Under the pieces are notes generated by a model. It ran no database searches, was not told where the DNA came from, and saw nothing but the letters and a program-made list of their open reading frames with translations. The position numbers and the translations under genes are program-made. Below, one piece after another: positions 1 to 26,359 of a stretch of DNA of 34,577 nucleotides. Each line of letters begins with the position of its first letter. Positions within the stretch are counted from its first letter, which is position 1. This stretch comes from Alteromonadaceae bacterium (GTDB taxonomy: Bacteria > Pseudomonadota > Gammaproteobacteria > Enterobacterales > Alteromonadaceae), in the NCBI GenBank assembly GCA_002691625.1, contig NZIK01000071.1:32578-67154 (forward strand). Direction: 5' to 3'.

Positions 1-17
1 CAATCTCATTCCTAGTC

Positions 18-1172
18 ATGACCCGATTTCTGGCCATTATTCTGTTGTTGCTCACCTCGGCAACCTCACAAAGTAAAGCGCTACAGGTTGGCGCTGAGCA
101 GCCAGAGCGTTACTTACCGCTGCTGGCAGGTAAAAAGGTGGGTCTGGTAGTTAACCAAACCAGCCGGGTAAAACAAACCCATCTGGTGGATTTCTTAGTG
201 AGTCGCAATGTGGCAGTGCAGGCCGTATTCGCGCCAGAGCACGGTTTCCGAGGCAAATTAGGCGCCGGTGAAAAAGTCACCGATGGCACAGATCCAAAAA
301 CGGGCCTGCCGATCCGCTCACTGTATGGCAAATATAAAAAGCCAGACCAGGCAATGCTCAGCGACATCGACCTGCTGGTATTTGATATTCAGGATGTCGG
401 CGCGCGCTTTTACACCTACATCAGCACCCTGCACTATGTGCTTGAAGCCGCCGCTGAACAATCCATCGAGGTTATTGTGCTGGACCGCCCCAATCCCAAC
501 GGGCGCTATGTTGACGGGCCCCTACGAGAAGCCGAGTTTACCTCATTCGTCAGTCTGGACCCGCTGCCGCTGCTACATGGGCTGACTGTGGGTGAGCTGG
601 CAACAATGATAAAAGGCGAAGCCTGGATAAATCAGGCAGAACAGCTAAGCCTCACAGTTATCCCGGTTGCCGGGTATAACAAAGCGCTCGACTATGCATT
701 ACCGGTGGCACCCAGCCCGAATTTGCCCAACAGCACGGCCATTCGCCTGTATCCGTCGCTATGCTTATTCGAAGCCACCGTAGTTAGTATAGGCAGAGGT
801 ACCGACTGGCCGTTTCAGGTTATCGGTCATAATGAGATAGCTCTTGGCGAGTTTACCTTTACCCCGCACCCCATGCCGGAAAGCGCGCCGACCCCAAAGC
901 TAAAGGGCGAATTATTATTTGGCCGTGATTTACGCGACAGCAACATTGAGGGCTTTAACATTGAATTGCTTTACGCAGTGTATCAGCAGTTTGAGGAACG
1001 TGGGCAGACCTTTATCGACCGTCCCGACTTTTTTGATCTGTTAAGCGGTACTGACAAGCTACGTAAACAGCTGAATGAAGGGCTTGACCCTGCCGCCATC
1101 CGCACAACCTGGCAACCGGGCCTGGATGCCTTTAAAGCACAGCGCCAGCCGTACTTACTTTACCCGCACTAA
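18..1172 (+). CDS. namZ: NamZ-like exo-beta-N-acetylmuramidase (DUF1343 family)
   Basis: The protein (384 aa) belongs to the DUF1343 family, whose founding member, NamZ of Bacillus subtilis (GH171), removes MurNAc from the non-reducing end of peptidoglycan fragments. Residues 1-21 form a signal peptide (hydrophobic FLAIILLLLTS), so the enzyme should be periplasmic or secreted. Family hallmarks are visible: VGLVVNQTSR at 41-50, FAPEHGFRG at 71-79 with the likely catalytic Glu74, and FDIQDVGARFYTY at 122-134. Length is normal for the family. The ATG at 18 is directly followed by the signal peptide, so the gene looks complete although its promoter lies outside the window. It is convergent with the MurR/RpiR-type regulator, with 11 bases between stops. 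The gene starts a block with NagZ, amidase and carboxypeptidase genes, which supports a cell-wall role. Family assignment is firm; the exact substrate is inferred. Confidence 0.9.
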   Translation: MTRFLAIILLLLTSATSQSKALQVGAEQPERYLPLLAGKKVGLVVNQTSRVKQTHLVDFLVSRNVAVQAVFAPEHGFRGKLGAGEKVTDGTDPKTGLPIRSLYGKYKKPDQAMLSDIDLLVFDIQDVGARFYTYISTLHYVLEAAAEQSIEVIVLDRPNPNGRYVDGPLREAEFTSFVSLDPLPLLHGLTVGELATMIKGEAWINQAEQLSLTVIPVAGYNKALDYALPVAPSPNLPNSTAIRLYPSLCLFEATVVSIGRGTDWPFQVIGHNEIALGEFTFTPHPMPESAPTPKLKGELLFGRDLRDSNIEGFNIELLYAVYQQFEERGQTFIDRPDFFDLLSGTDKLRKQLNEGLDPAAIRTTWQPGLDAFKAQRQPYLLYPH

Positions 1173-1183
1173 TCAGCCTTGGT

Positions 1184-2050
1184 TCAGCTACCCGGAGTAC
1201 CCGAACCGCCGCGTCGAAACTGAGAAACAATCTCGTTGGTTTTCTCCAGCAGTTTGCGGCCAGGCCGTGATGCCTGAGTAAGTGCAATAAACAGCATGTC
1301 GATAATCAGCTCCTGAGCGGTTCTGGCCAGGATTGAGGACAACCGCGCCGACGCTTCTTCGGCCACCGAATAAAGCTGCACATCAGCCGGCTCCGACACC
1401 GGCGTAGTGCCATATTTGGTAATGGAGATAACTTTGGCGTGATTATCTTTAGCCTGATTGACCACGTTAACAATCTCCCGGGTAGCGCCAGACTCAGAAA
1501 TGGCCACCACCACATCACTCTCGTTAAAAGTAGCAGCCAGCGCTAATTGCACGTGCCCGTCGGCCTCGGCAATTGCCATCATGCCGAGCTTTTGCAATTT
1601 GAATGAAAAATCTTTGCTCACCAGTCCTGAGCCGCCCACCCCACAGATCAGAATACGTTTGGCGTTTTTAATGATTTCAACCGCCTTCTCAAACTCCACC
1701 AGTTCGTTGAGGTTGCGGGTTTCATTGAGCACACTGATCTTACTGCTCAGCAGCTTGTCGGCCATTTGCTCAAAACCGTCATTGAGGGTTATTTTGCCAT
1801 GTAGCTGGGTGTTGGGAGTTTCCCGGTTGAGCGCATCAATCACTGCCAGTTTGAACGCCGGATAGCCTTTGTAACCGAGCTTTTGCGCGAACTTCACCAC
1901 ACTGGACTGGCTCACTCCCACCACATTGGCCAGCTCCTGGGAAGACAGGTCCCGCACAGCGTTAGGTGAATCCAGCGTAAAAGTCGCTAGTTTTGATTCA
2001 CTGCTCGACAATGAATGCTTTATTGCTTTAATTTTAACAAAAGCTGACAT
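1184..2050 (-). CDS. MurR/RpiR family transcriptional regulator
   Basis: This 288-aa protein has the two-domain RpiR layout. An N-terminal helix-turn-helix (about 30-75; LANVVGVSQSSVVKFAQKLG) is followed by a SIS sugar-phosphate-binding domain (about 120-255; ILICGVGGSG and VVVAISESGATREIV). Family members sense phosphosugars; MurR of E. coli responds to MurNAc-6-phosphate. It is transcribed away from the M14 peptidase gene across a 170-bp gap that holds a 13-bp AT-rich palindrome found again twice between nagZ and the amidase gene. This makes it the likely local regulator. The effector cannot be read from sequence; MurNAc-6P is inferred from the neighbours. It could instead answer another amino-sugar phosphate. 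Confidence 0.85.
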   Translation of the reverse strand: MSAFVKIKAIKHSLSSSESKLATFTLDSPNAVRDLSSQELANVVGVSQSSVVKFAQKLGYKGYPAFKLAVIDALNRETPNTQLHGKITLNDGFEQMADKLLSSKISVLNETRNLNELVEFEKAVEIIKNAKRILICGVGGSGLVSKDFSFKLQKLGMMAIAEADGHVQLALAATFNESDVVVAISESGATREIVNVVNQAKDNHAKVISITKYGTTPVSEPADVQLYSVAEEASARLSSILARTAQELIIDMLFIALTQASRPGRKLLEKTNEIVSQFRRGGSGTPGS

Positions 2051-2114
2051 GCGCTTGTTCCCGGTTGTCGGCGTCGGTTACTAAGCAAAGAAACCAACAA
2101 CAAAAATAACGAAA

Positions 2115-2127
2115 GAATTTTTTATTC
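2115..2127. promoter_or_regulatory. Candidate RpiR-type operator, copy 1
   Basis: The palindrome GAATTTTTTATTC lies in the divergent gap between the RpiR-type regulator and the M14 peptidase gene, about 65 bases from the regulator start and 94 from the peptidase start. Closely similar 13-mers occur twice in the nagZ/amidase divergent gap. The position suits autoregulation plus control of the peptidase gene. Binding is inferred, not shown. Confidence 0.45.
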
Positions 2128-2220
2128 AAATATAAACCAGTTGATAAGAATATCAAAATCTCTTTAAATAGTGTTTTCGGCGCTCTACGCGTTTAACTGT
2201 TTGTAAGGTTACCGTAAATT

Positions 2221-3570
2221 ATGAAAGCTGCCCATCCCCACGCGCCAGCACAGGCCATCGCCAGTCTCTGGGATTCTCATTATTTTAATACGTTGGATAA
2301 AGCCCATCTGCGCCACGAGGATATTCAGCCGGTGCTTGATGAAATTGGTGACTATCCGTCGATTACCCGTGAAACTATCGGTTACAGCTGCACCGGCAAA
2401 TCCATTGAGCGATTAAGTATGGGCAATGGTCCGCTGATTATCCTGGCCTGGACTCAAATGCACGGCGACGAGCCTACAGCTACCGCAGCGGTGCTCGACT
2501 GGCTGAAACTGCTACACCTCAATACAAGCAGTAATGCACTGGCATTAGGCAATGACTGGATGTCGCTGGTTACCCTGCACATTATCCCTATGCTGAATCC
2601 GGATGGCGCTGAGCGTGATACACGGGTGAATGAGCAGGGCATAGACATCAACCGAGATGCCAAACAGCTGCAAACGCCGGAAGGCAGATTGTTGTGGCAA
2701 CAGGTGCAAACGCTTAAACCGGATGTGGCCTTTAACCTGCACGACCAAAACCCTTACTATTCGGTTGGCCCAACGGCTTACCCGGCTACCATTGCTTTTC
2801 TTGCGCCGGCTTTTCATCCGGATAAGCATGTTGATGCGCCGCGCCTGCGGGCAAAACAACTGATTGCCTGCATGGCTGATACCCTGAGCCACTGGCTGCC
2901 CTGCCATATCGGCCGCTACGACGATACCTATTCGCAGCGCTCATTTGGTGACAACATTGCCGGTACCGGGGCCAGCACGATCCTGATTGAGTCCGGAGCA
3001 CACCCCAACGATCCCCATCGCCAGGTGGCAAGAAAGATGAATGTCATTGGCTTGCACAGTGCGCTGGAAGCTTTACTGGGGAATTTGTATCAGCAGAAGT
3101 CCCTGGCCGACTATTACCGCCTTCCCGATAATGTTGAAGATGGTCTGGTCGATATTAAATTTTCCCGGGTTGCGCAGCGCTGCGCCGGCCATGATTACGT
3201 GGCAGATATCAGCGTGAATGTAGATAAGCAGGGCCGCGCCACGGTAAAACATATCGGCGACCTGTCAGGACAGGCCGGTTTTACCAATATCAGCGCCTAT
3301 CAAACCACTATACTGCCGGTGAAGGCCTATCAACTCGACGGCCATTTGGTGCTAACAGAGAGTGATTACCTGGCGCTGCTAAAACAGGGTTTCAGTGTTT
3401 TTGCCGGTGATAGTTCGCAGCTTGATAATCAGAGTGGGCTGCCAGTGTTATGTTTACCGGAATCGCCCGCCTATTCCACCTTATATCCCGGCGCTGACGC
3501 TTTCTGGGTAATGCAGGACAGCGAGGGCCAACAACGGGCCGTGTTAAACGGCCAAATGATCAATCTTTAA
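2221..3570 (+). CDS. M14 family zinc carboxypeptidase, possible murein peptide amidase
   Basis: The 449-aa protein carries the M14 metallopeptidase signature. Zinc ligands are His81 and Glu84 (MHGDEPT) and His174 (FNLHDQ). Substrate-binding segments NPDGAER (126-132) and DINRD (142-146) and catalytic Glu257 (LIESG) are also present. There is no signal peptide, so it is probably cytoplasmic, like MpaA, which cleaves the gamma-D-Glu-diaminopimelate bond of murein tripeptides. About 150 C-terminal residues beyond the catalytic domain are not recognised. It is divergent from the RpiR-type regulator. Its stop codon overlaps that of the convergent solute-binding protein gene by four bases. Peptidase fold and active site are clear; the murein peptide substrate is inferred from the surrounding genes. 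Confidence 0.85.
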   Translation: MKAAHPHAPAQAIASLWDSHYFNTLDKAHLRHEDIQPVLDEIGDYPSITRETIGYSCTGKSIERLSMGNGPLIILAWTQMHGDEPTATAAVLDWLKLLHLNTSSNALALGNDWMSLVTLHIIPMLNPDGAERDTRVNEQGIDINRDAKQLQTPEGRLLWQQVQTLKPDVAFNLHDQNPYYSVGPTAYPATIAFLAPAFHPDKHVDAPRLRAKQLIACMADTLSHWLPCHIGRYDDTYSQRSFGDNIAGTGASTILIESGAHPNDPHRQVARKMNVIGLHSALEALLGNLYQQKSLADYYRLPDNVEDGLVDIKFSRVAQRCAGHDYVADISVNVDKQGRATVKHIGDLSGQAGFTNISAYQTTILPVKAYQLDGHLVLTESDYLALLKQGFSVFAGDSSQLDNQSGLPVLCLPESPAYSTLYPGADAFWVMQDSEGQQRAVLNGQMINL

Positions 3571-4301
3571 AAGGTCTGCCGGGTCAGCTCGGCAATCAGC
3601 GCCTGATTAAAGCGCTGCATAAACGCCTTATCTACCCGGTTGCGGCTAAACAGAAAATGCACCCGGGTTTCATGTATCACCTGTTTGGACACCATAAAGT
3701 CGTCAAGGCCCAGCTGCTGTGCAGCAGCCTCGAGCACCTTCCGGTCGCCGACAACCGCATCTACTCGCCCCATTTTCAACAACTGCATGCGCCGCATGGT
3801 CCCTTCTGCGTGGATCAGATTGCGGTCGTGATCATCGAGCGCATTGCGTTGAAACTCTTCACCAAACCAACCGCTTTTATTCACCGAAACCAGAAAGTTT
3901 TGCTGCAATAACGAACTGACATTTACGTCCCTGAAATAGGGATTACGGGAAAACCTGAAGCCAAATACGATAGTTTCCTTACGATAGGGTATTGAATAGA
4001 AGTTCTGGGCTTCGCGGGTCTTCGTATAGGCAGCGCCAAGGATAACGTCGACTTCGCCCTGTTTGAGCTCCAGCGCCATCCGCTGCTCAGGCAAGCGCTG
4101 CGCATTCAGCTCGTAGCCAAGCCGTTGAAGCGTGCGCCGCAGTAAACGTAAATCTTCGCCGTCAGGCTCACCCTGCTGATTGATATACAGGTAAGGCTTC
4201 CAGTCAACCGTAACGGCCAGATCGAATGACTCTTCACCGCGGGCATCAAAGCCCACTGTATACAGACAGACTGCCAGTATGAAGATAAACAAGTCGCGCA
4301 A
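3567..4301 (-). CDS. Exported SBP_bac_3-type solute-binding protein
   Basis: This 244-aa protein begins with a signal peptide (hydrophobic LFIFILAVCLYTVGF) followed by a periplasmic binding fold of the amino-acid type (SBP_bac_3). Typical segments are VDWKPYLYINQQGEPDGEDL, a central GEVDVILGA and GRVDAVVGDRKVLE near the end. No ABC permease or ATPase is adjacent, so it is an orphan. Such stand-alone domains are common in Alteromonadales, often of unknown function. It is the third gene after nagZ and the acyltransferase on the same strand, with a 77-base gap, so it may be the tail of that operon. Ligand unknown; an amino acid or muropeptide is possible but unsupported by sequence. Confidence 0.75.
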   Translation of the reverse strand: MRDLFIFILAVCLYTVGFDARGEESFDLAVTVDWKPYLYINQQGEPDGEDLRLLRRTLQRLGYELNAQRLPEQRMALELKQGEVDVILGAAYTKTREAQNFYSIPYRKETIVFGFRFSRNPYFRDVNVSSLLQQNFLVSVNKSGWFGEEFQRNALDDHDRNLIHAEGTMRRMQLLKMGRVDAVVGDRKVLEAAAQQLGLDDFMVSKQVIHETRVHFLFSRNRVDKAFMQRFNQALIAELTRQTF

Positions 4302-4378
4302 CGTCTTTCCCTGTGTTTGCGTTTACGGTGTGAAATGATTATTGCACCGGTTCCAGCCGGATGTGGACTTACCAGCGC

Positions 4379-5521
4379 TTAAATTCGCCAAAAAAAACCA
4401 TTATTATACATAAGCTTAATTGGATAATAGCAGATTATCAGAAAACCTGATGCCCACAACAGCGAAGCCATTTCCGCAGGCAGAGGGAGCGCTTCCATAA
4501 ATCGCCAGGCATGACCTTTCAGTGAAACACCGTCAATTTTAATAATTAGCAGTACCCGGGCGAGAATACCAGACAACATGAAAAAAGCGATGCTATTGGT
4601 CCCGGCAACCAGTAACGGATGGCCTTTGGGTAACGGACCAACTTTTCGTTCATACAGGATACTGAGCCAAAACAGGAGGGTTAGTATACCACTGGTTACC
4701 AGCACAAAAGTGGGCGACCAGAGCGCCTTGTTAATTGGGTTGATTACCGCCAGGCCATAGCCGGCACAAATGCCGGCCAGGGCCAGCATCATCAGTTTAT
4801 TCGGACAGCCGTGTTGCACCAGGGCGTAACGCCCCACCCACACGCCACTCAGGCAGGTCGCTACCGCAGGTAGGGTTGACAGGATCCCCTCAGGGTCAAA
4901 GGCAAATGGGTTCGCCGCGGAATAATAGACATGGTCTGCCCCTAGCAGGTGATGATCGAGATAAGCGGCAAGGCTGTTGCCGAATTCCCACTGGCCCTGA
5001 TAAATCCCGCCGCTGGCGTCAGTGTAAGGGATCCACTCCATCGCTCCCCAGTATCCGGCCAGTAATACGGCTGCTAGCAAGCCAATCCAGCGCCAGGAAA
5101 CAGCGAGAATAAGCATTACGGTGAGCCAGTACACTACACCGAGCCGAGGCAGTACACCGGCAAAACGCAGCGACAACAAACGCTCCTCAACCCAGTTGTA
5201 TCCGGCACTGCCGGTATTATACCAACACAGATATAATCCCCAGCCCAGTAAAATAAGCATGATAGCCCGGCGAGTAGTGTTTCTGACCACAGCCATCGTA
5301 CTGTTGAGGCGGGTTAGCTCCCGGGGTAAATGAATTGCTATGGTGACGCCCATCACAAAGATGAAGCCCGGAAAGATAACATCTGTTGGGGTCAGACCGT
5401 GCCAGTCTGCATGTTTTAGCGGCGCATAAATAGCCTGCCAGGAGCCCGGATTATTAACCAGCACCATGGCAATGATGGCCAGCCCCCGCAGGGCATCCAA
5501 AGCACTAATGCGCGCCGTCAT
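4379..5521 (-). CDS. nagX: NagX/HGSNAT-type membrane acyltransferase
   Basis: The protein (380 aa) is an integral membrane acyltransferase related to human heparan-alpha-glucosaminide N-acetyltransferase and bacterial NagX. The diagnostic N-terminus is present: ALDALRGLAIIAMVLVNNPG (8-27), then a HADWHGLTPTDVIFPGFIF stretch with the conserved His residues. About ten hydrophobic segments follow. The family moves an acetyl group from cytoplasmic acetyl-CoA across the membrane to terminal glucosamine; NagX genes often sit in GlcNAc-utilisation clusters. The start lies five bases after the nagZ stop, indicating translational coupling. A plausible role is re-acetylation of de-N-acetylated amino sugar from peptidoglycan or chitin, which is inferred. 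Family call is secure. Confidence 0.82.
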   Translation of the reverse strand: MTARISALDALRGLAIIAMVLVNNPGSWQAIYAPLKHADWHGLTPTDVIFPGFIFVMGVTIAIHLPRELTRLNSTMAVVRNTTRRAIMLILLGWGLYLCWYNTGSAGYNWVEERLLSLRFAGVLPRLGVVYWLTVMLILAVSWRWIGLLAAVLLAGYWGAMEWIPYTDASGGIYQGQWEFGNSLAAYLDHHLLGADHVYYSAANPFAFDPEGILSTLPAVATCLSGVWVGRYALVQHGCPNKLMMLALAGICAGYGLAVINPINKALWSPTFVLVTSGILTLLFWLSILYERKVGPLPKGHPLLVAGTNSIAFFMLSGILARVLLIIKIDGVSLKGHAWRFMEALPLPAEMASLLWASGFLIICYYPIKLMYNNGFFWRI

Positions 5522-5526
5522 GAGCC

Positions 5527-7362
5527 TTACTCGTCGATGGTGACAGGCGATTTACCAGGCATCGGCGAACGCCCGAGTAAGCCTTCTGCCAGCGCGGTAA
5601 AGACCGCCCCCTGGGCCCGAGCAGTACCTTGTTCTTCTGCACCGGTTACGGTGACGTTATAGCCAAAGGTAGCCACGGCAGCGCCGGCAAGATGGCGATA
5701 GTCCGAAATAATATAGGGTGCTCTGAGCGCAACGAATACAGCATTTACTGATTGTTCACCGGCACCGGCCAGCAGCCGTCTTATCCAGGTTTCCTGGATG
5801 TTTTTATCCGGTCGGTTGCGCCAGGCGCTCAGATCTGCCATGCCGCCCATTTCAGCGAGGCTGTGTTGTGGCGTAATATCGCCCACGATCACGGCATCGG
5901 TATCATTCAGATCAGGCAAGGCTTCATCAGGGTCTATGGCGGTTAACGCATCGCAGGTAAGTTGCAAACCTGGCTGCAGATTTAATAACGCGGCCGTCAT
6001 TGCCATGCAGCGGGCCTCGTCGGGCATTACCACGTAAAAGCGACTCCCTCTGAGTGGCAATACACCACGATTATAAACCTGGGTTATTGCAGCGCTGGCG
6101 AGCGCCATTTCGGTGCGCTGGCTCTCTTCCCCGGGTAGCGTATCCACAGCGCTTTGAATCCGCTCCGCCAGCGGCTTGTGGGTAAACTCATCAAGCTTAA
6201 ATTGCTGCTTGGCCTGCAAAATACGCTTAACCGACAACCGGGTTTGCTGACGGTCAATGTCTCCGCTGCTCATGGCCTGTACCCATTGCTGGTAGAGCTC
6301 CCAAAAACGACTGACACTTTGTGGATTGCGCACCGCATAAGGCATCAATGCGATATCCGCCCCGGCATTAAAGGTTTTTATCACCGCATTTTTATGATCA
6401 ACGTAGTGGGCAATACCAGCCATATCCAACGCATCGGTCACAATAATGCCTTCGTAGCCCATTTTATTGCGCAGTAAGCCGGTGAGAATTTTGTGCGAGA
6501 GAGTGGCAGGTACCAGGGTATCCTCTCCGTCGAGTGCCTTAAAACGGGTGTCATCAAGCAATGGGTACTGAATATGCGCGGTCATTATCATCGCCGGTGC
6601 CTGTCCCTGCTCGATGGCATAGCGAAAAGGCAGTAAATCAACCGCTTCCACGGTGGCCAGATCGTGATCTACCCTGGGCAGACCGGTGTGACTGTCGGTA
6701 TGAGTATCGCCATGACCGGGGAAATGCTTCAGGGCGCTGAGAATATTTTCACTCTGTAGCGCGGCCACGGCCGCTGCGCCGAGCTCGGCCACCATTTGTG
6801 GGTCTTCACCGTAAGACCGGACGTTAATAACCGGATTATCAGCATTAACATTAACATCCACAGTGGGGGCGAAATTTACATTAAACCCAAGCTTACCAAT
6901 ACTTGTAGCAATGCCTTTATTAACCCGCTCGGCAAAGGTAGTGTTATACAGCGGGTAAGTTGCTCCAATCGCCATATTGCCAACATAACGGGTTGCCACT
7001 TCATCCGGCAACCGCGCAACCCGGCCCCCTTCCTGATCGATGGCGATAAACAGTGGTGGTAAACCTTCCTCTTTGGCCAGTTGCTGAATGGCATAATTAA
7101 GCTCGATGATCTGCTGACTGTTATCGAGATTTTCTGCGAATAGGATCACCCCGCCAATATGGCCCTGACGAATAATTTCGGCAAACTCTGGAAGCAAGGT
7201 GGTAACCGGCGTTTTACAACGTTCCGCTGGTGTACCATCCACGCAGTAATAGCGCATGTCCAGCATCAGCTTCTGACCCAGCATAAACTCGGTGTCCTGC
7301 CCGCCGGAGCAGCCTACGGTTAACATTACAAGAAAACTCACCAGTACGGCTTTAGTACGCAT
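5527..7362 (-). CDS. nagZ: NagZ-type GH3 beta-N-acetylglucosaminidase, lipoprotein with C-terminal domain
   Basis: This GH3 enzyme removes GlcNAc from muropeptides. I place the start at the ATG at 7362, giving 611 aa that open with MRTKAVLVSF and a lipobox Cys 18 residues in (LTVGC). The frame continues upstream to a TTG at 7392, giving 621 aa. In that longer numbering the NagZ motif KHFPGHGDTHTDSH spans 222-235, with the catalytic Asp233/His235 dyad, and the nucleophile is Asp320 (VTDALDMAG). E. coli NagZ has about 340 residues and is cytoplasmic. This one is nearly twice as long, exported, and carries a C-terminal GH3-type domain (about 440-621), like B. subtilis NagZ. It heads a nagZ-nagX-SBP operon and is divergent from the amidase fusion gene. 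A candidate operator lies 65 bases upstream of this start. Confidence 0.9.
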   Translation of the reverse strand: MRTKAVLVSFLVMLTVGCSGGQDTEFMLGQKLMLDMRYYCVDGTPAERCKTPVTTLLPEFAEIIRQGHIGGVILFAENLDNSQQIIELNYAIQQLAKEEGLPPLFIAIDQEGGRVARLPDEVATRYVGNMAIGATYPLYNTTFAERVNKGIATSIGKLGFNVNFAPTVDVNVNADNPVINVRSYGEDPQMVAELGAAAVAALQSENILSALKHFPGHGDTHTDSHTGLPRVDHDLATVEAVDLLPFRYAIEQGQAPAMIMTAHIQYPLLDDTRFKALDGEDTLVPATLSHKILTGLLRNKMGYEGIIVTDALDMAGIAHYVDHKNAVIKTFNAGADIALMPYAVRNPQSVSRFWELYQQWVQAMSSGDIDRQQTRLSVKRILQAKQQFKLDEFTHKPLAERIQSAVDTLPGEESQRTEMALASAAITQVYNRGVLPLRGSRFYVVMPDEARCMAMTAALLNLQPGLQLTCDALTAIDPDEALPDLNDTDAVIVGDITPQHSLAEMGGMADLSAWRNRPDKNIQETWIRRLLAGAGEQSVNAVFVALRAPYIISDYRHLAGAAVATFGYNVTVTGAEEQGTARAQGAVFTALAEGLLGRSPMPGKSPVTIDE

Positions 7363-7426
7363 CACTATCAGGGCCCTTTCCAAATGCATCAACGTCGATA
7401 ACCAAGCTTACCCCAGCAACCGCAAA

Positions 7427-7439
7427 AAATAAATTATTC
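7427..7439. promoter_or_regulatory. Candidate RpiR-type operator, copy 2
   Basis: AAATAAATTATTC on the plus strand reads GAATAATTTATTT on the minus strand and contains the perfect palindrome AATAAATTATT. It lies 65 bases upstream of the nagZ ATG at 7362 (35 bases from the upstream TTG), a position suited to repressing nagZ. It matches copy 1 at 10 of 13 positions in that orientation. Confidence 0.45.
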
Positions 7440-7594
7440 CAACCTGACATTTTAAATCTTTGTTTATCAAATCCATATCAGCTTGCCACAATCAACCAAC
7501 GCTGCGCTCAATAACACACAAAGTCGTGTTTATAAAAGCGCTTAACGAATAATTAGTAGTTGCTGAAAGCGTTGAATTCCACACCACACAACAG

Positions 7595-7607
7595 GAATAT
7601 TTTATTA
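7595..7607. promoter_or_regulatory. Candidate RpiR-type operator, copy 3
   Basis: GAATATTTTATTA contains the palindromic core AATA-TTT-TATT. It lies about 100 bases upstream of the preferred GTG start of the amidase fusion gene (about 45 from the upstream GTG). It matches copy 1 at 11 of 13 positions and overlaps an AT-rich stretch (TATTAT at 7603) that could be a -10 element. Confidence 0.45.
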
Positions 7608-7706
7608 TGCAGAAGTCTTTCGAGTATGGTAGTTTGAGTAATATGCGCGTCTGTGCCTCAGGCAATCGCCCGGCCAACAAATAAACCAAAGAGTAGAGAA
7701 AAGATT

Positions 7707-10178
7707 GTGACCAGCCGAAGTTTTCGCGGTGTTTTGTTATGGACACTTTGTGCACTGCTTTTAATTAGCTGTAGCAGTCGACGGGTAATTGAAATGCCCT
7801 CGGCTAATTATGGCGAGCGGGTAAAATCACTGGTATTACACTTTACGGCAATTGACTATGCCCGCTCAGTCACAGCGCTGGTTGATGAAGGCGGTTTAAG
7901 CTCCCACTACCTTATCCCTGAATCCAATGATCCGAGCGATCCCGGCGGCAAGCCCAGAATAATCCAGTTAGTCGACGAAAACATGCGTGCCTGGCATGCC
8001 GGAAAAAGTTACTGGCAGGGGCGTACCGGCTTAAATGACCACTCCATTGGCATCGAGATAGTCAATGTGCCGGAATGTGAGCGTGACGGCGATATGGCCC
8101 CCTCACTGGCCGAGCATGGCTCAAACCGGTTATGCTTTTTTCCGGATTACGACCCGGCCCAAATCGAAGTAGTTATTGAGCTGGTAAAAGACATTATTGC
8201 CAGACACCCGGATATCGAACCCACTGCGGTTGTCGGTCATTCGGATATCGCTTTCGACCGCAAGAACGATCCCGGTCCTCGCTTTCCATGGTTTGAGTTA
8301 TATCAGGCTGGTGTTGGCGCCTGGTATGATAATGAAACATTGGCCAACTACTGGAAAACCTTTAACGAGCAGCCGGCCAGTATCGGTTTACTGCAAAGTG
8401 CACTGCGCGCTTATGGTTATGGCGTCATCGAAACCGGTATCGCCGATACCAGTACCCTCAATGCCATTTCCGCATTTCAGATGCACTTTCTGCCCTGGCA
8501 TGTCAGTGGTGAGCCTGATAGCCGGACCACGGCCGCCGTGTTTGCTTTACTCGATAAGTATTTCCCGGAGCAAAAAGACGCCCTGTTTAACCGTTATGAA
8601 AAAGAGCGTGAGCTGGCTATTGCCACCGCAGAAAGTGAATTGCCCACTGTTCGGCGTGGTCAGATAGATGCGCTGTTGCCAGACCTTAAGCCATCCAGGC
8701 GCGCCTTTGTTAAAGACCGCTTCGCGTTTAAAAGCTATGCCGGTCGCGGCGAACTGATCATTGAGAGTAACCTGCCAGCTTCGGCGACGGTGTCGGTGAA
8801 CGGCGAGGTACTGTCGCTGGATGAGGAGTTTGCTGCCGACAATACCTATCGTTATTCCCTGGCCCGCCGCACCCGAACCGGCATCAATACCCTGGCCGTG
8901 AGCAATATAGAACCGGCCGAAGCGCAGTTGCATATTCAGGTACCCTATCCTGAATTAAAAGACAACACTCAGGCATACCAGAACCACTTTACCGCAGTAG
9001 ACGAGCTCATCAGACAGGAAGTCGCTGAAGGCTTTCCGGGTGCGGTGTTACTGATAGTCAAAGAAGGCGAAATTATTAAACGCACAGCCTATGGATACCA
9101 GAAGCGCTACGACGAGGACGGTCTGCCGCTGACCAGCCCGCAACCGATGCGTACCGATACCATTTTTGACCTGGCTTCCAACACCAAAATGTTTGCCACC
9201 ACGCTGGCACTGATGCATCTGGTGGAAACCGGTCAGCTCGATGTGACGCAGCCCATAAAACATTATCTGCCGGAATATCAGGGGGCAGGACGAGAGGCAA
9301 GAAGGGTTAGCGACCTGCTGTCTCATCAGTCCGGCTACTCGCCAAGCATTGCTTTTTACGACCCGGAAAACCCGTTGGGCAAACGCTTTTATTCCCAGTC
9401 CCGCCAACGTACCAGCGAGCTGCTGATCACCCAGGCCCCCTTTGAAATCAGCAATGGGCTTAGCGCCTCCTACAGTGATGTTAACTTTATGCTGCTTGGT
9501 CTGATTGTGGAGCGCATTACTGGCATGCCTCTGGACCGATATTGTGAAGAGTGGCTGTATCAGCCGCTGGGGCTCAAAAATACGCTGTTCAACCCGCTGC
9601 AGAAAGGTCACCACAAAGGCGAATTTGCCGCCACCGAACTACGTGGGAATACCCGCGACGGCCGGATCACGTTTCCGAATATCCGTGAATATACCCTGCA
9701 GGGAGAAGTTCACGACGAAAAAGCCTTTTATGCCATGCAGGGTGTATCTGGTCATGCCGGGTTGTTCTCCACTGCCGATGAACTGGCCGTCATGGCACAA
9801 ATGCTGTTAAACGGCGGGGGGTACGGTGAAACACATTTGTTCGACAGCAATGTAATAAATGCCTTCACCAAACCAGATAATCGCTTCTGGCACTATGGGC
9901 TCGGCTGGCGCCGGGCGGCTAATGGCACCAACCGCTGGCACTTCGGCCCTTATGCCAGCGATCTGGCATTTGGCCACACCGGTTGGACAGGCACGGCAAC
10001 TGTTATCGACCCAGCCCTTGATTTGGCCGTCATCCTCTTGACCAACGCGCGCCATTCGCCCATTGTGGAAGAAGACGAAGAAAAGCTGCAATTTACCGGT
10101 AAGCAATTTGAAACCGGCCGCTACGGCAGCATCGTTTCACTGGTCTACGAAGCAATTCTGAACAAACAGGCCAATTAA
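7707..10178 (+). CDS. Lipoprotein fusion: AmiD-type zinc amidase, peptidoglycan-binding domain, AmiE-like serine hydrolase
   Basis: I prefer the GTG at 7707 (823 aa), because it directly precedes a lipoprotein signal (LLWTLCALLLISC). The open frame also extends to a GTG at 7653 (841 aa), and residue numbers below use that longer form. Lipobox Cys is 40. Residues about 55-225 form an AmpD/AmiD-type N-acetylmuramoyl-L-alanine amidase with zinc ligands His63, His196 and Asp206 and likely catalytic Glu135. Residues about 240-305 resemble a PG_binding_1 domain. After a beta-rich linker (about 365-430), residues 440-835 form a serine-beta-lactamase-fold domain: S509-NT-K512, Y607-SD, and H775-TG. 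In Bacillus a protein of this second type (AmiE) is also a MurNAc-L-Ala amidase. The gene leads an operon with the NhaC-like transporter and GGT. The domains are clear; the activity of the second half is inferred. Confidence 0.88.
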   Translation: MTSRSFRGVLLWTLCALLLISCSSRRVIEMPSANYGERVKSLVLHFTAIDYARSVTALVDEGGLSSHYLIPESNDPSDPGGKPRIIQLVDENMRAWHAGKSYWQGRTGLNDHSIGIEIVNVPECERDGDMAPSLAEHGSNRLCFFPDYDPAQIEVVIELVKDIIARHPDIEPTAVVGHSDIAFDRKNDPGPRFPWFELYQAGVGAWYDNETLANYWKTFNEQPASIGLLQSALRAYGYGVIETGIADTSTLNAISAFQMHFLPWHVSGEPDSRTTAAVFALLDKYFPEQKDALFNRYEKERELAIATAESELPTVRRGQIDALLPDLKPSRRAFVKDRFAFKSYAGRGELIIESNLPASATVSVNGEVLSLDEEFAADNTYRYSLARRTRTGINTLAVSNIEPAEAQLHIQVPYPELKDNTQAYQNHFTAVDELIRQEVAEGFPGAVLLIVKEGEIIKRTAYGYQKRYDEDGLPLTSPQPMRTDTIFDLASNTKMFATTLALMHLVETGQLDVTQPIKHYLPEYQGAGREARRVSDLLSHQSGYSPSIAFYDPENPLGKRFYSQSRQRTSELLITQAPFEISNGLSASYSDVNFMLLGLIVERITGMPLDRYCEEWLYQPLGLKNTLFNPLQKGHHKGEFAATELRGNTRDGRITFPNIREYTLQGEVHDEKAFYAMQGVSGHAGLFSTADELAVMAQMLLNGGGYGETHLFDSNVINAFTKPDNRFWHYGLGWRRAANGTNRWHFGPYASDLAFGHTGWTGTATVIDPALDLAVILLTNARHSPIVEEDEEKLQFTGKQFETGRYGSIVSLVYEAILNKQAN

Positions 10179-10212
10179 AATAACGACATAAAAACAACAA
10201 GGGTTCATTCGT

Positions 10213-11589
10213 ATGGATTGGGTTTCCATCATTCCACCAGTCATCGCCATTGTGATCGTTTTCTGGAAGAAAGAGGTCATTATGGCATTGCTGATGGCGG
10301 TTCTCAGTGCTGAGGCACTGATCCTCCTCACCGCCGGCACAGATAGCCTGTTGCTGGCACCGATTACTTCCATCGAACGGGTGGTAGAGGTAGCCACCAG
10401 CGCCGGTAATACCCGAATTTTATTATTCAGCGTTCTGGTAGGCGCGCTGCTGGCTTATATTCGTGACTCAGGCGGCGTAACCGCTACGGTAGACTGGCTC
10501 ACTAAACGCGGGGTCGCAAAAAGTCGTCGCCAGGTGGGTGGACTTACCATGCTTACCGGTATCGTTGTTTTCATTGAATCTAACCTTAGCGTACTAACAG
10601 CCGGTATTTTTGCCCGCGGCTTATTTGATAAGTTTGGCATGAGCCGTGCCCGTCTGGCATATCTTATCGACAGCACCAGTGCGCCAATTTGTATTCTTAT
10701 TTTGCTCAATGGTTGGGGCGCGTTTGTGCTTGGCATGCTCGATACTTACGAACTGCCCGCCTCATCAGCCAGTATTCTGTGGGGCTCGGTATTCTTTAAC
10801 TTCTACGCCATCATTGCGCTGCTCATCGCCGCTTACACCGTGTTTGCCGACAAAGTGCACGGCCCGATGGCCAAAGCAGAACAACAGTTAGAGAGCAATC
10901 AGCAGCAGCTTTCTGCCGCAGCGGCTACTAAAACCGGCTATATGGTGATCCCCATCCTAACCATGATAGTGAGCATGGTTGGCTTTATGCTGTGGACCGG
11001 CAATGGCGTACTCTCTCAGGGCAGCGGCAGTAAGTCGGTACTGTATGCAACCATTCTGGCCACCGCTGTGGCGTACCTGATGCTGGTATTTTCTAAACGC
11101 TTTACCCATCACGAAGCGGTAGATGTAGGCTTTATAGGCATGGGTGAATTACTGCCTTTAGTCACTATCGTATTACTGTCGCTTACCCTCGGAGGCAGTT
11201 TAAAGGTTTTGGGAACCGGTCTGTTTGTTGCTGGTATAGTTGGTGAGTACTTACCTTTATTCCTGATTGTCCCCATGCTGTTCTTAGCCGGCGGCATTAT
11301 GTCGTTTACTACCGGTACTTCCTGGGGCACTTTTGCCATTCTTATCCCTATTGGCGTGCCGCTGATACAGCAGCTCGGCCTGCCTCCGTCGCTGGTCATC
11401 GGTGCCATTCTGGGCGGCGGCGTGTTTGGCGATCACTGCTCGCCGATATCCGATAACACCGCCGTTTCGTCGATTGCCTCAGGCTGCGACCTGCTTGAGC
11501 ACGTGCGCACGCAAATGCCCTATGCCCTGACCGGCGGTGCATTAACCTTAGTCCTTTATGTCATAACCAGTTTAATCATGGTGGGTTAG
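10213..11589 (+). CDS. NhaC-family Na+/H+ antiporter-like transporter
   Basis: This 458-aa membrane protein has about eleven hydrophobic segments. It carries the NhaC-family signature GDHCSPISDNTAVSSIASG near residues 410-428 and an earlier TSWGTF element around 372. Known relatives exchange Na+ for H+ or for organic acids (MleN) and amino-acid-like substrates. An AAGGG ribosome-binding site sits nine bases before the ATG. The gene lies 34 bases after the amidase fusion and four bases before the GGT gene, so the three are almost certainly co-transcribed. The setting suggests transport of a muropeptide breakdown product, such as an amino acid, dipeptide or MurNAc, coupled to Na+. That is inference; simple Na+/H+ antiport is the conservative call. 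Confidence 0.82.
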   Translation: MDWVSIIPPVIAIVIVFWKKEVIMALLMAVLSAEALILLTAGTDSLLLAPITSIERVVEVATSAGNTRILLFSVLVGALLAYIRDSGGVTATVDWLTKRGVAKSRRQVGGLTMLTGIVVFIESNLSVLTAGIFARGLFDKFGMSRARLAYLIDSTSAPICILILLNGWGAFVLGMLDTYELPASSASILWGSVFFNFYAIIALLIAAYTVFADKVHGPMAKAEQQLESNQQQLSAAAATKTGYMVIPILTMIVSMVGFMLWTGNGVLSQGSGSKSVLYATILATAVAYLMLVFSKRFTHHEAVDVGFIGMGELLPLVTIVLLSLTLGGSLKVLGTGLFVAGIVGEYLPLFLIVPMLFLAGGIMSFTTGTSWGTFAILIPIGVPLIQQLGLPPSLVIGAILGGGVFGDHCSPISDNTAVSSIASGCDLLEHVRTQMPYALTGGALTLVLYVITSLIMVG

Positions 11590-11593
11590 TTTC

Positions 11594-13279
11594 ATGCGAT
11601 ATCTGTTAATAAGTGCCTTAATCATTGCTCTTACTGCCTGTTCAACCTCCGAACAGGTCACAACTACACCGGCCAGTACTGCTGAGTATGCGGTTGCCAT
11701 GCCCGATAAATTCGCGGCCCGGGTCGCTCTCGAAGTCATGCAGGACGGCGGTAATGCGGTAGACGCGGCCATCGCGGCGCAATTTGTTCTGGCGGTAACT
11801 TACCCCGAGGCAGGCAATATCGGCGGCGGCGGATTTATGACCATTTACATGGATAGCAGTGCCGATTTCCTCGATTACCGGGAAATGGCACCTTCGGGAG
11901 CCTCCCGTGACATGTACCTCGATGACAACGGCGATGTACACCCTACCGACTCATTGTTTGGCGCCAAGGCCTCAGGTATACCCGGCACTGTTGCCGGGAT
12001 GTGGGCTGCCCATCAGAAGTACGGAAAATTACCCTGGCAACGCTTGGTTCAGCCTGCAGTAACCTATGCCAGTGAGGGCTTTGAAGTCCCGGAGAAACTG
12101 GCAGGTCGGGTAAGTCGCTACATTAACCGCGTTGAAAAACGCGGCCTTGAAACCAACTTTGCCAACTATTTTGGCGAAGCCGCCACAGCAGGCGTGTTAT
12201 TTAAACAGCCTGAGCTTGCGGCCACTTTAAGTCGCATCCGTGATAACGGGCCGGCCGGTTTTTATAAGGGCGAAACGGCCGATCATATTGTTAGCTACAT
12301 GCAGGCCAATGGAGGCTTAATCAGTCATGAAGACTTAACCCGGTATCACGCCCAATGGCGCACACCGATTAAGTTTGAATGGCGCGGCTATCAGGTTGTC
12401 ACAGCCCCACCGCCTAGTTCTGGCGGTATCGCGGTGGCCCAATGGCTCGGCATGGTCGACAACGTGACCAGAACAAATGTATTACCCGCGCATAATTCAG
12501 CGCCTTATCTGCATCTGGTGAGTGAAGCCGGTAAACGAGTGTTTGCCGACCGCGCTGAATACCTCGGCGACCCGGACTTTTTCGCCGTCCCACAACCGAA
12601 GTTAATTGCGCCGGACTATATCGCCGAGCGAGCGCAGGAAATTAACCTGACAGCCATTTCGGCTACCCCACAAATCAAACCCGGACTTCACGAAAGTGAG
12701 GACACCACCCATTTCTCTATTGTAGATCAGTGGGGCAATGCGGTAGCGAACACTACAACCATAAACCTGAGCTTTGGTGCCGGCGTTGTGGCTGAAGGCG
12801 CGGGCTTTTTATTGAATGACGAAATGGATGACTTCAGTGCCAAACCCGGTGTGCCAAATTTCTTCGGCGCGATTGGCGGGGAAGCTAATGCTATTGAGCC
12901 ATACAAGCGGATGCTTTCATCCATGACGCCCACTATTGTGCTCGAGGACGGACAGGTTAAGCTGGTGACAGGTTCACCCGGTGGCACCACGATTATTTCC
13001 TCAGTAACGCTGTCGATTCTTAATACGCTGCTATACGATTTAACTGCAGAACAAGCAGTAAACCTGCCTCGTTTCCATCACCAGTTATGGCCGGAGGATC
13101 AGATCCGCGTACATGAAGGGTTCGACCCGGCTACACTGAATACGCTGCAAGACATGGGCTACAACATAAAAGAGAGTAACTTTGGCGATCTGCACCTGAT
13201 CATGCAACAAAACGGCAAACTATCGGCCGCTTCCGAAGCCCGTGGGCGGGGTAAAGCGGTAGTGCAGTCCGTAAAATAA
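11594..13279 (+). CDS. ggt: Gamma-glutamyltransferase, predicted lipoprotein
   Basis: This 561-aa protein is a gamma-glutamyltranspeptidase, made as a precursor that cleaves itself before a catalytic threonine. It has a lipoprotein signal (MRYLLISALIIALTAC, Cys16). The autoprocessing site is DTTHFS with nucleophile Thr371. Partner residues Asn391 and Asp413 keep the spacing of E. coli Thr391, Asn411 and Asp433. A GSPGGTT loop closes the active site, and Arg96 (DYREMAP) matches the glutamate-binding arginine region. The family hydrolyses or transfers gamma-glutamyl groups, usually from glutathione. Here, as the last gene of the amidase-transporter operon, it may attack the gamma-D-Glu bond of stem peptides. 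That substrate is unproven; glutathione use is the usual alternative. Confidence 0.92.
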   Translation: MRYLLISALIIALTACSTSEQVTTTPASTAEYAVAMPDKFAARVALEVMQDGGNAVDAAIAAQFVLAVTYPEAGNIGGGGFMTIYMDSSADFLDYREMAPSGASRDMYLDDNGDVHPTDSLFGAKASGIPGTVAGMWAAHQKYGKLPWQRLVQPAVTYASEGFEVPEKLAGRVSRYINRVEKRGLETNFANYFGEAATAGVLFKQPELAATLSRIRDNGPAGFYKGETADHIVSYMQANGGLISHEDLTRYHAQWRTPIKFEWRGYQVVTAPPPSSGGIAVAQWLGMVDNVTRTNVLPAHNSAPYLHLVSEAGKRVFADRAEYLGDPDFFAVPQPKLIAPDYIAERAQEINLTAISATPQIKPGLHESEDTTHFSIVDQWGNAVANTTTINLSFGAGVVAEGAGFLLNDEMDDFSAKPGVPNFFGAIGGEANAIEPYKRMLSSMTPTIVLEDGQVKLVTGSPGGTTIISSVTLSILNTLLYDLTAEQAVNLPRFHHQLWPEDQIRVHEGFDPATLNTLQDMGYNIKESNFGDLHLIMQQNGKLSAASEARGRGKAVVQSVK

Positions 13280-25474: not shown

Positions 25475-26359
25475 ATGAATACATTGACGTTCAGACTACT
25501 TGAAGTTTTTCAGCAGGTTGTTGATTGCGGTTCAGTAACCGCCGCCTCCAATGCCCTGCAACTATCACAGCCTACCGTGTCACTTCAGCTTAAAAAACTA
25601 AACAGTATTATTGGTCTGCCCCTGATTGAGCACTTTCAGGGCAGCGTGCAACTCACAGAAGCCGGTGCTGCCGTATACCGCTGCGCTCAGGAGATTTTAT
25701 CTTCACAGGACAAACTGAAAAGCCAGATCAGCGCCTTGCAGGGAGTGGAAGTTGGCTCACTTAAACTGGCTGTAGTGACCACTGCCAAATACATCATTCC
25801 GCCAATGCTCAGCCCGTTTTGCAAACAACATCCTAATATCGATGTACGCTTTACCGTGGGTAACCGCGAGCAAATTGCCGAGCGTCTGATGCAAAATCGT
25901 GATGACCTGTATATTTTCACCTATCCGCCCGAAGATGACGACTTGGTCTGCGAACCGTTTCTGGCCAATCCGCTCGTTGTCATTGCCCCGCCAGATTACG
26001 ATGGCCCGGATAACTGCCGTTTAGCCGAGCTGCAAAACGCCAAGTTCCTGCTCAGAGAGAAAGGCAGTGGTACCCGCCGCACGTTGGATGAGTACTGCGA
26101 TAAGCACGATGTGCAGTTGCGCAACTCTATGGTAATTGAAAGTAACGAGGCGATTCGCCTGGCCGTTTCTGCCGGTTTAGGCCTGGCGGTGCTATCCCAG
26201 CATACGCTCGATCAGTCAGCTATCGACAGCGTTAAAGTACTTAATATCACCGACTTCCCGATTCAAAGTACCTGGCAGGTGGTGACCAACCGCCGCCGCC
26301 CAATCAGTCTCTCGGCCCAGGCGTTTCGTCAGTCACTGCTTGATAACCCACGTACTTGA
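25475..26359 (+). CDS. LysR family transcriptional regulator
   Basis: The protein has the LysR layout: a winged helix-turn-helix in residues 1-60 ([23 protein letters not shown]) and a periplasmic-binding-like effector domain (about 90-290). [16 protein letters not shown] resembles the CbbR/RbcR/CysB-like branch. I start at the ATG at 25475 (294 aa); an ATG at 25463 would add four residues but overlaps a TATAAT at 25459 that could be the -10 element. The last 56 bases overlap the end of the convergent sensor kinase gene. Targets are unknown; purEK, divergently transcribed, is the nearest candidate by position only. Confidence 0.9.

Follow-up and report, generated by a model that had tools for sequence, protein, structure and literature searches.

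A predicted periplasmic muropeptide-catabolism cluster with a putative two-amidase lipoprotein in an Alteromonadaceae genome

Introduction

In textbook Gram-negative recycling, anhydro-muropeptides are imported by AmpG and dismantled in the cytoplasm, and this route triggers induction of the AmpC beta-lactamase in some species. The gene cluster considered here, a putative periplasmic muropeptide-catabolism regulon, lies at the left end of a 34,577-nucleotide stretch of an Alteromonadaceae genome (GenBank assembly GCA_002691625.1, contig NZIK01000071.1, positions 32,578 to 67,154), and the whole of this stretch is called the window below.

Several described systems are related to it. The Bacillus subtilis cluster murQ-murR-murP-amiE-nagZ-namZ (ybbC) performs cleavage outside the cytoplasm (PMC5061867, PMC10653849). 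Tannerella forsythia, described as an N-acetylmuramic acid (MurNAc) auxotroph, has the operon ybbC-murT-murK-murQ (PMC5388701, PMC5790795); the family of its importer MurT differs by paper, being called distantly NagX-related in PMC9007349 and placed in the sodium symporter superfamily in PMC5790795. In Escherichia coli, murQ-murP-yfeW is accompanied by murR (PMC5061867). For Rhodothermus marinus, a periplasmic, AmpG-less reading has been proposed in PMC6987092. Among the papers listed in searches of the open-licence PMC literature no description of the present gammaproteobacterial cluster was recognised, which is not a claim of its absence from print.

Gene content and extent of the cluster

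Domains were called with Pfam and NCBIfam profiles, and export signals were judged by eye and with a lipobox pattern, without a dedicated predictor. Nine genes were identified within 13 kb, encoding successively NamZ, an RpiR/MurR-type regulator, an M14 peptidase, a solute-binding protein (SBP_bac_3), a NagX-like protein, NagZ, an amidase fusion, an NhaC-type transporter and a gamma-glutamyltransferase (GGT). The first-pass annotation, made from the letters of the window alone, had placed eight of these proteins correctly and had left the SBP_bac_3 gene unmentioned. Its statement that MurQ and MurK are absent does not hold, as murQ and a BadF-type kinase gene are located immediately beyond the left edge of the window and the genome encodes AnmK at another place. 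The operon is severed by the window boundary, and the apparent lack of MurQ and MurK is therefore an artefact of the window edge.

The contig stretch L002 reaches left of the window, whose base 1 corresponds to L002:10001. The murQ gene (L002:9080-10015, forward strand) matches NF009222 with 337.3 bits (cut-off 255) and TIGR00274 with 301.3 bits, just under 302, and only 2 bases separate its end from the ATG of namZ. It is preceded by a gene for a sodium:solute symporter (SSS; L002:7444-9024), related to the solved entry 5nv9, a structure of the sialic acid transporter SiaT. Thus namZ is the last gene of an SSS-murQ-namZ unit starting left of the window. The translations from L002 contain ambiguous residues, 29 in the SSS and 20 in MurQ. 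Further left, on the opposite strand, are encoded an alanine racemase (Alr), a ZIP transporter and a BcrAD/BadFG kinase of the BadF/NagK type (PF01869). No domain of the phosphotransferase system (PTS) was found among the 27 scanned proteins of the window and L002; the search for MurP did not extend to the remaining genome.

Glycosidases and the amidase fusion

NamZ (18..1172, forward strand), a predicted exported exo-beta-N-acetylmuramidase, possesses both the NamZ_N and NamZ_C domains (PF07075, 259 bits; PF20732, 101 bits) and aligns with PDB entry 4jja across residues 21-383 (E=1.1e-99). NagZ (5527..7392, reverse strand; PF00933, 265 bits) is a GH3 N-acetylglucosaminidase with the two-domain layout of B. 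subtilis YbbD, in agreement with the first-pass annotation of a Bacillus-like muropeptide locus whose glycosidases and amidase are exported or lipoproteins; its best solved matches are the YbbD/NagZ entries 3bmx, 3lk6 and 4gyj, which cover residues 36-585 and extend beyond the catalytic domain alone, and the KHFPGHGD...DSH stretch is kept. The export signals reported for four proteins are of unequal quality. Clear lipoboxes are present on the fusion (LLISC) and on GGT (LTAC), and the N-terminus of NamZ is plain signal-like by eye; the lipobox of NagZ, a probable lipoprotein, is weaker (TVGC) and was missed by the pattern, with a canonical lipobox in several relatives.

The fusion (7653..10178, forward strand) is a lipoprotein composed of an AmiD/AmpDh3-type zinc amidase, a PG_binding_1 domain, a linker and a serine hydrolase of the PBP4B (AmiE-family) type. 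Its N-terminal part is nearer to AmiD, AmpDh2 and AmpDh3 than to AmpD (4bxd, AmpDh3, 2e-59; 2bh7, AmiD, 7.5e-49; 1j3g, AmpD, 2.3e-10), and the zinc ligands, PG_binding_1 domain and lipobox of AmiD/AmpDh2-3 amidases are all present. The C-terminal part belongs to PF00144 and matches the PBP4B model NF002968 with 488 bits (cut-off 385), a model for which 8 of the 14 control genomes, among them E. coli and B. subtilis, also have a match, in one case, presumed to be E. coli, over the cut-off. In the window protein and three homologues, residues H63, E135, H196 and D206, presumably the zinc site of the amidase, are invariant, as are S509xxK512, Y607-S-D609 and H775-T-G777, which we take to be the SxxK, YxD/N and H/KTG catalytic motifs of the serine hydrolase (one row ends just past the last motif). 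Since AmiE of B. subtilis is assigned to PF00144 (PMC10653849) and the murQ operon of E. coli includes the PBP4B gene (PMC5061867), the protein unites two different folds, each expected to act on MurNAc-L-Ala, although the PBP4B half, which scores as PBP4B, is only a putative amidase for this bond.

A shorter amidase lipoprotein is encoded in G106 (L028-L029, 632 aa) and G224 (L055-L056, 710 aa), where G and L numbers denote genomes and loci; PBP4B has no listed match in the former and a trace of 19.7 bits in the latter, as though the serine domain were decaying.

Conservation in relatives

Screening of 295 genomes of the order revealed NamZ_N in 25, over the cut-off in 24; within the family it is present in 17 of 24 genomes, the own genome included. 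For the 23 relatives over the cut-off the analysis covered as much as 20 kb to either side of namZ, less at contig ends, and G152, with a single weak match under the cut-off, was left out of the synteny and association counts. In 16 of the 23 relatives murQ lies immediately upstream of namZ, and in 21 it is no more than 6 kb away, the exceptions being G244 and G001. Also found near namZ are NagZ (18 relatives), NhaC (12), the SSS (12), the amidase domain of the fusion (10), GGT (7, one partial) and, at no less than 58% identity, the PBP4B domain (6), and a homologue of the regulator (35-81% identity) occurs within 20 kb in 15. Scattering of the homologues over related genomes, which had been named at the outset as a sign against a functional locus, is thus the lesser part of the picture: the genes are clustered in most relatives, although nagZ and namZ are on different contigs in G121, G263, G194 and G244, and two further genes are likewise on other contigs, namely the one matching PBP4B in G254 and that of the fusion in G058. 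The NamZ-less family members G090 and G282 keep kinase-alr and SSS-murQ-M14-fusion-NhaC beside the same purA flank.

A BadF-type kinase gene is located between those of the SSS and MurQ in 7 of the 23 relatives. In G147 (L059/L060), G072 (L040/L041) and G052 (L061/L062) the coding sequences of the kinase and MurQ run together in a single frame of 620-636 codons, a predicted natural MurNAc kinase-etherase fusion.

A scan of named genomes, from which the best 80 loci were returned and which overlaps the set of relatives (L077 and G183 have identical NamZ proteins), placed murQ near namZ in 15 of 17 gammaproteobacterial loci. Genes for the SSS, the kinase, MurQ, NamZ, NagZ and NagX all occur together in cultivable relatives such as Alishewanella agri (L083) and Rheinheimera pacifica (L095). 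Among the same 80, the Flavobacterium loci L121, L128, L139 and L156 have the order namZ-murQ-SSS-(GH3 and beta-lactamase)-nagX, with a distant SSS and the bracketed domains joined in one frame of 1006-1029 codons. In a 104-row tree the window NamZ falls into a supported group of 36 rows, all gammaproteobacterial but for one from Robiginitomaculum; the gammaproteobacterial rows overall do not form one clade.

The NamZ proteins of the same-genus genomes G031 (L053/L054), G204 (L047) and G214 (L049/L050), whose clusters are without SSS, group with that of G052 and not with the window NamZ (support 92/95), so that perhaps two NamZ lineages exist inside one genus. Clusters of relatives encode, as optional parts, an FAD/Fe-S oxidase, presumably similar to D-lactate dehydrogenases (D-lactate is released by MurQ), and an enolase-superfamily protein, presumably similar to dipeptide epimerases, along with TonB receptors, DUF819 transporters and NlpC/P60-SH3 proteins. 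In G121 a second cluster (L157, G121:C1, 6909-14733), encoding a PBP4B-like hydrolase, a lipoprotein NagZ and a TonB receptor, adjoins AnmK.

Relation to AmpG-dependent recycling

The classical route was compared in 31 genomes, 24 of the family and 7 others with NamZ. AnmK is present in all of them and AmpG exceeds the cut-off in 25; the match is weak in G121, and none was obtained in the own genome (G000), G183, G263, G090 and G282. The negative in G000 is limited by an assembly that is 87% complete, rated 3.2% contaminated and interrupted by ambiguous bases, while the other four genomes are rated 100% complete and all have the cluster, which in two of them is without namZ. All six genomes with absent or weak AmpG hold the full-length fusion in one frame, and PBP4B exceeds the cut-off in 5 of the remaining 25, in one (G254) unfused; these proportions (6/6 vs 5/25, p=0.0006; with strict AmpG absence and the own genome left out, 4/4 vs 6/26, p=0.008) have p values that overstate independence, because 24 of the 31 genomes are from the same family, several share a genus, and kinship is uncorrected. 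Strict AmpG absence together with the fusion occurs in two genera (g5 and g9); in g1 AmpG is a weak match (G121) or unmatched in the incomplete own genome. By eye, a separate short Amidase_2 frame of AmpD size (180-235 codons) was found in 25 of 25 AmpG-positive genomes and in two of the six others (G000 and G263).

The SSS is present (E<=1e-60) in 15 of the 31 genomes, all MurQ-positive, and is located at the cluster in all 15; it accompanies PBP4B in 11 of 11 positive genomes and occurs in 4 of the 20 others. MurU exceeds the cut-off in all six MurQ-less family members and in 3 of the 18 with MurQ. The two sampled species of genus g9 are split in the same sense: G183 has NamZ, MurQ, SSS and the fusion but neither a match to AmpG nor a MurU over the cut-off, and G172 has AmpG and MurU and none of NamZ, MurQ, SSS and fusion.

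These distributions suggest that the cluster may stand in for AmpG-AmpD in some lineages. Put more tentatively, at a little under even odds, a PTS-free, AmpG-independent regulon of Alteromonadales type, working by a two-amidase lipoprotein, SSS import and burning of MurNAc through kinase and MurQ, would have replaced the cytoplasmic route more than once, the lineages with AmpG and MurU re-using MurNAc for the wall. Of the genes that the first-pass annotation proposed to look for genome-wide, anmK, ampD and a second, cytoplasmic-type nagZ are present, the last in two copies. The predicted periplasmic route is supported but, given these genes in the own genome, would be at least partly parallel to classical recycling, or replace part of it.

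The two NagZ copies, on L163 (G000:C60) and L164 (G000:C54), have by eye alike gene surroundings including an mfd-like gene, which suggests that the own assembly mixes two organisms; calls of presence and absence in G000 therefore carry little weight.

Regulator and promoter palindrome

The regulator (1184..2050, reverse strand) consists of HTH_6 and SIS domains, and its best NCBIfam matches are under the equivalog cut-offs. Palindromes upstream of cluster genes have the common core GGAATA...TATTCC (nine sequences viewed). The SSS-promoter site of L080 served as query, and gaps shorter than 40 or longer than 700 bases, those exceeding 20 N and those without a gene start were omitted. With at most 3 mismatches and L080 excluded, 12 of 79 gaps at the cluster contain a site, against 0 of 271 gaps elsewhere (Fisher p=8.8e-9), in a test that was not blind because the query was picked after nine of the tested sequences had been viewed; with L080 included the counts are 13/82 and 1/273. 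At up to 4 mismatches they rise to 25/79 and 10/271, and in AT-rich gaps at up to 3 mismatches they are 10/54 and 0/144.

The SSS promoter of the window genome has a 3-mismatch site (L002:7329-7345), missing from the matches listed by the test, likely owing to its ATG-only caller of open reading frames. Within the window, unstranded matches are located in the divergent gaps between nagZ and the fusion (7425..7441, 4 mismatches) and between the regulator and M14 genes (2113..2129, 5 mismatches). The palindrome appears to mark the promoters of the cluster and would pair with the MurR-type regulator. A 1-mismatch copy away from the cluster, G198:C34:89628-89644 (L182), may mark another regulon member.

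Accessory genes

The NagX-like transmembrane N-acetyltransferase (HGSNAT_cat; 4379..5521, reverse strand) reaches 142.8 bits with NF046061, under the cut-off of 480, so that the assignment of its function is based on the conserved histidine: H37 aligns with H297 of HGSNAT (8vkj) and is invariant in 8 homologues, two from Flavobacterium included. NagX is proposed to be a transmembrane glucosamine N-acetyltransferase in PMC9007349, and the catalytic histidine named there is kept here.

The M14 zinc carboxypeptidase (2221..3570, forward strand) matches PF00246 with 34 bits and the MpaA model with 18.3 bits, far under its cut-off of 157. Residues H81xxE84, H174 and E257, presumably those of the catalytic site, are invariant in 4 homologues. 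No signal peptide is visible in the window genome or in 4 relatives, and the enzyme is proposed to be a cytoplasmic stem-peptide peptidase; three homologues at 38-39% identity do carry a signal peptide. The transporter (10213..11589, forward strand; Na_H_antiporter, PF03553, 136 bits) is NhaC/Tet(35)-like, and the GGT lipoprotein (11594..13279, forward strand) matches PF01019 with 554 bits and TIGR00066 over the cut-off.

The orphan solute-binding protein (3567..4301, reverse strand; SBP_bac_3 by Pfam) is at the locus in none of the 23 relatives and is probably a local insertion; its candidacy as an importer component was rejected on account of this absence and because no ABC partner was found among the scanned proteins. 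Outside the cluster, at 26304-29120 of the window, is encoded a hybrid histidine kinase with a dCache sensor and a receiver domain, unrelated to the genes described above.

Discussion

The gene content, domain composition, catalytic residues and clustering, joined by the kinase-MurQ frames of relatives and the shared palindrome, argue for a periplasmic muropeptide-catabolism regulon similar to that of B. subtilis, in which an SSS and a kinase would replace the PTS and an AmiD-PBP4B lipoprotein would perform the amidase step; a probability of roughly 0.78 is attached to this reading. Judged by the enzyme families, NagZ and NamZ would strip N-acetylglucosamine (GlcNAc) and MurNAc singly from non-reducing ends in the periplasm, and the fusion would cut MurNAc-L-Ala, with its AmiD-type zinc domain acting on larger or anhydro fragments and its PBP4B/AmiE-family serine domain on small MurNAc-peptides. 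NagX may re-acetylate de-N-acetylated amino sugars with cytoplasmic acetyl-CoA. Free MurNAc would be imported by the SSS and phosphorylated by the BadF-type kinase, after which MurQ would yield GlcNAc-6-P and D-lactate. A peptide arm may comprise GGT, the M14 peptidase and alanine racemase, with NhaC perhaps carrying one product, and the MurR-type regulator would repress the set until MurNAc-6-P or a similar signal appears.

In addition to the statistical limits given above, a number of observations weigh against this interpretation. The kinase gene of the window genome is separated from namZ by 4.6-5.6 kb to the left, being on the opposite strand and not in the murQ operon; its product is nearest to the model of the GlcNAc kinase NagK (288.5 bits, under the cut-off of 370), its nearest solved structure is 1zc6, the MurNAc/GlcNAc kinase 8zo3 being only third, and it may be a GlcNAc kinase. 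No such kinase is found at the cluster in the three same-genus, SSS-positive genomes G106, G121 and G224. NagX and M14 are near namZ in only 3 and 4 of the 23 relatives, respectively, and are therefore regarded as optional parts. Among the best 80 loci of the named-genome scan, murQ was detected in just 4 of 63 non-gammaproteobacterial NamZ loci, all from Flavobacterium. The regulator scores 185 bits with the MurR model (cut-off 408). The palindrome is weak in the window and stronger in relatives, and a genome-wide search of 12 genomes gave 20 sites with no more than 2 mismatches, of which only 6 belong to the cluster, a reversed control pattern giving 9 sites.

The most serious competing explanation, though less probable, is an accessory to recycling of the own wall: fragments would be trimmed in the periplasm, most of them would pass through AmpG to cytoplasmic NagZ, AmpD and AnmK, and MurQ would mainly serve the product of AnmK. 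The prevalence of AnmK and AmpG among the 31 genomes and the cytoplasmic-type enzymes of the own genome are in its favour, as is the combination of murQ-namZ-nagZ with AmpG and without SSS in G031, G204 and G214 (and in G194, with nagZ on a different contig). However, AmpG was found neither in the 87% complete own genome nor in the four complete cluster carriers, and if anhydro-muropeptides alone entered, there would be no need for an importer and a kinase of MurNAc. An exchange of roles between the transporters, with NagX importing MurNAc and the SSS carrying another solute, is unlikely. NagX is called distantly related to TfMurT in PMC9007349, and E. coli without MurP grew on MurNAc with TfMurT and TfMurK according to PMC5790795, but the latter paper places MurT in the sodium symporter superfamily instead; moreover, NagX retains the catalytic histidine of HGSNAT and is near namZ in 3 of 23 relatives against 12 for the SSS, which is found with murQ in 15 of 15 genomes.

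Very improbable is a locus for the use of chitin or GlcNAc with a hitch-hiking MurQ, in which GH3, NagX, the NagK-like kinase and the RpiR regulator would serve chito-oligosaccharides. NagX is often encoded in chitin operons (PMC9007349), and an RpiR-regulated chitin-oxidation cluster of Pseudoalteromonas has a beta-hexosaminidase and a kinase (PMC9537276). Against this, NagZ is of the Bacillus muropeptide type, and no chitinase or chitoporin model matched among the proteins scanned at the locus. To our knowledge NamZ, MurQ, AmiD amidase, PBP4B and GGT have no use on chitin, and as the main explanation a chitin locus was rejected for these proteins.

If periplasmic muropeptide catabolism is indeed the function of the cluster, dismantling before import would withhold the AmpC-inducing signals, and the bacteria could feed on the walls of dead neighbours. 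The cluster also offers a test case for PTS-free MurNAc import, and the near-exclusion of MurQ and MurU within the family would allow the choice between burning and re-use to be compared between sister species. The cluster adds a putative two-amidase lipoprotein and a distribution suggestive of a stand-in for AmpG-AmpD in some lineages. A PTS-free Gram-negative variant as such has parallels in Tannerella and Flavobacterium, and the scavenging route put forward in the first-pass annotation is plausible but has a precedent in the T. forsythia ybbC-murT-murK-murQ operon (PMC5388701, PMC5790795).

Comparison with known systems

With the B. subtilis cluster the present locus shares NamZ, a Bacillus-type NagZ, MurQ, a regulator of the RpiR type that may correspond to MurR and a PF00144 hydrolase, and by predicted export also cleavage outside the cytoplasm. 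It differs in several respects: an SSS and a separate kinase are encoded here and no PTS importer was seen at the locus, the serine domain is fused to an AmiD zinc amidase, and NagX, GGT, M14, Alr and NhaC are added. The T. forsythia operon likewise combines a NamZ homologue, a PTS-free importer, a BcrAD/BadFG kinase and MurQ (PMC5388701, PMC5790795); in contrast to the cluster it includes, as described in PMC5388701, AmpG and neither NagZ nor an amidase-PBP4B fusion. In E. coli, MurQ, MurR-type control and PBP4B are encoded together as here, but the importer is of the PTS and PBP4B is a separate protein (PMC5061867); E. coli was not among the control genomes matching NamZ_N.

The AnmK, AmpD and cytoplasmic-type NagZ of the classical AmpG-NagZ-AmpD-AnmK route are also present in this genome, and AmpG was not found in its 87% complete assembly; unlike the enzymes of that route, those of the cluster are predicted to be exported or lipoproteins. 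RmNag3 of R. marinus and the Flavobacterium fusion combine a GH3 NagZ with a domain of the beta-lactamase family. In these proteins the serine domain is joined to NagZ, whereas in the window it is joined to AmiD and NagZ is a separate protein.

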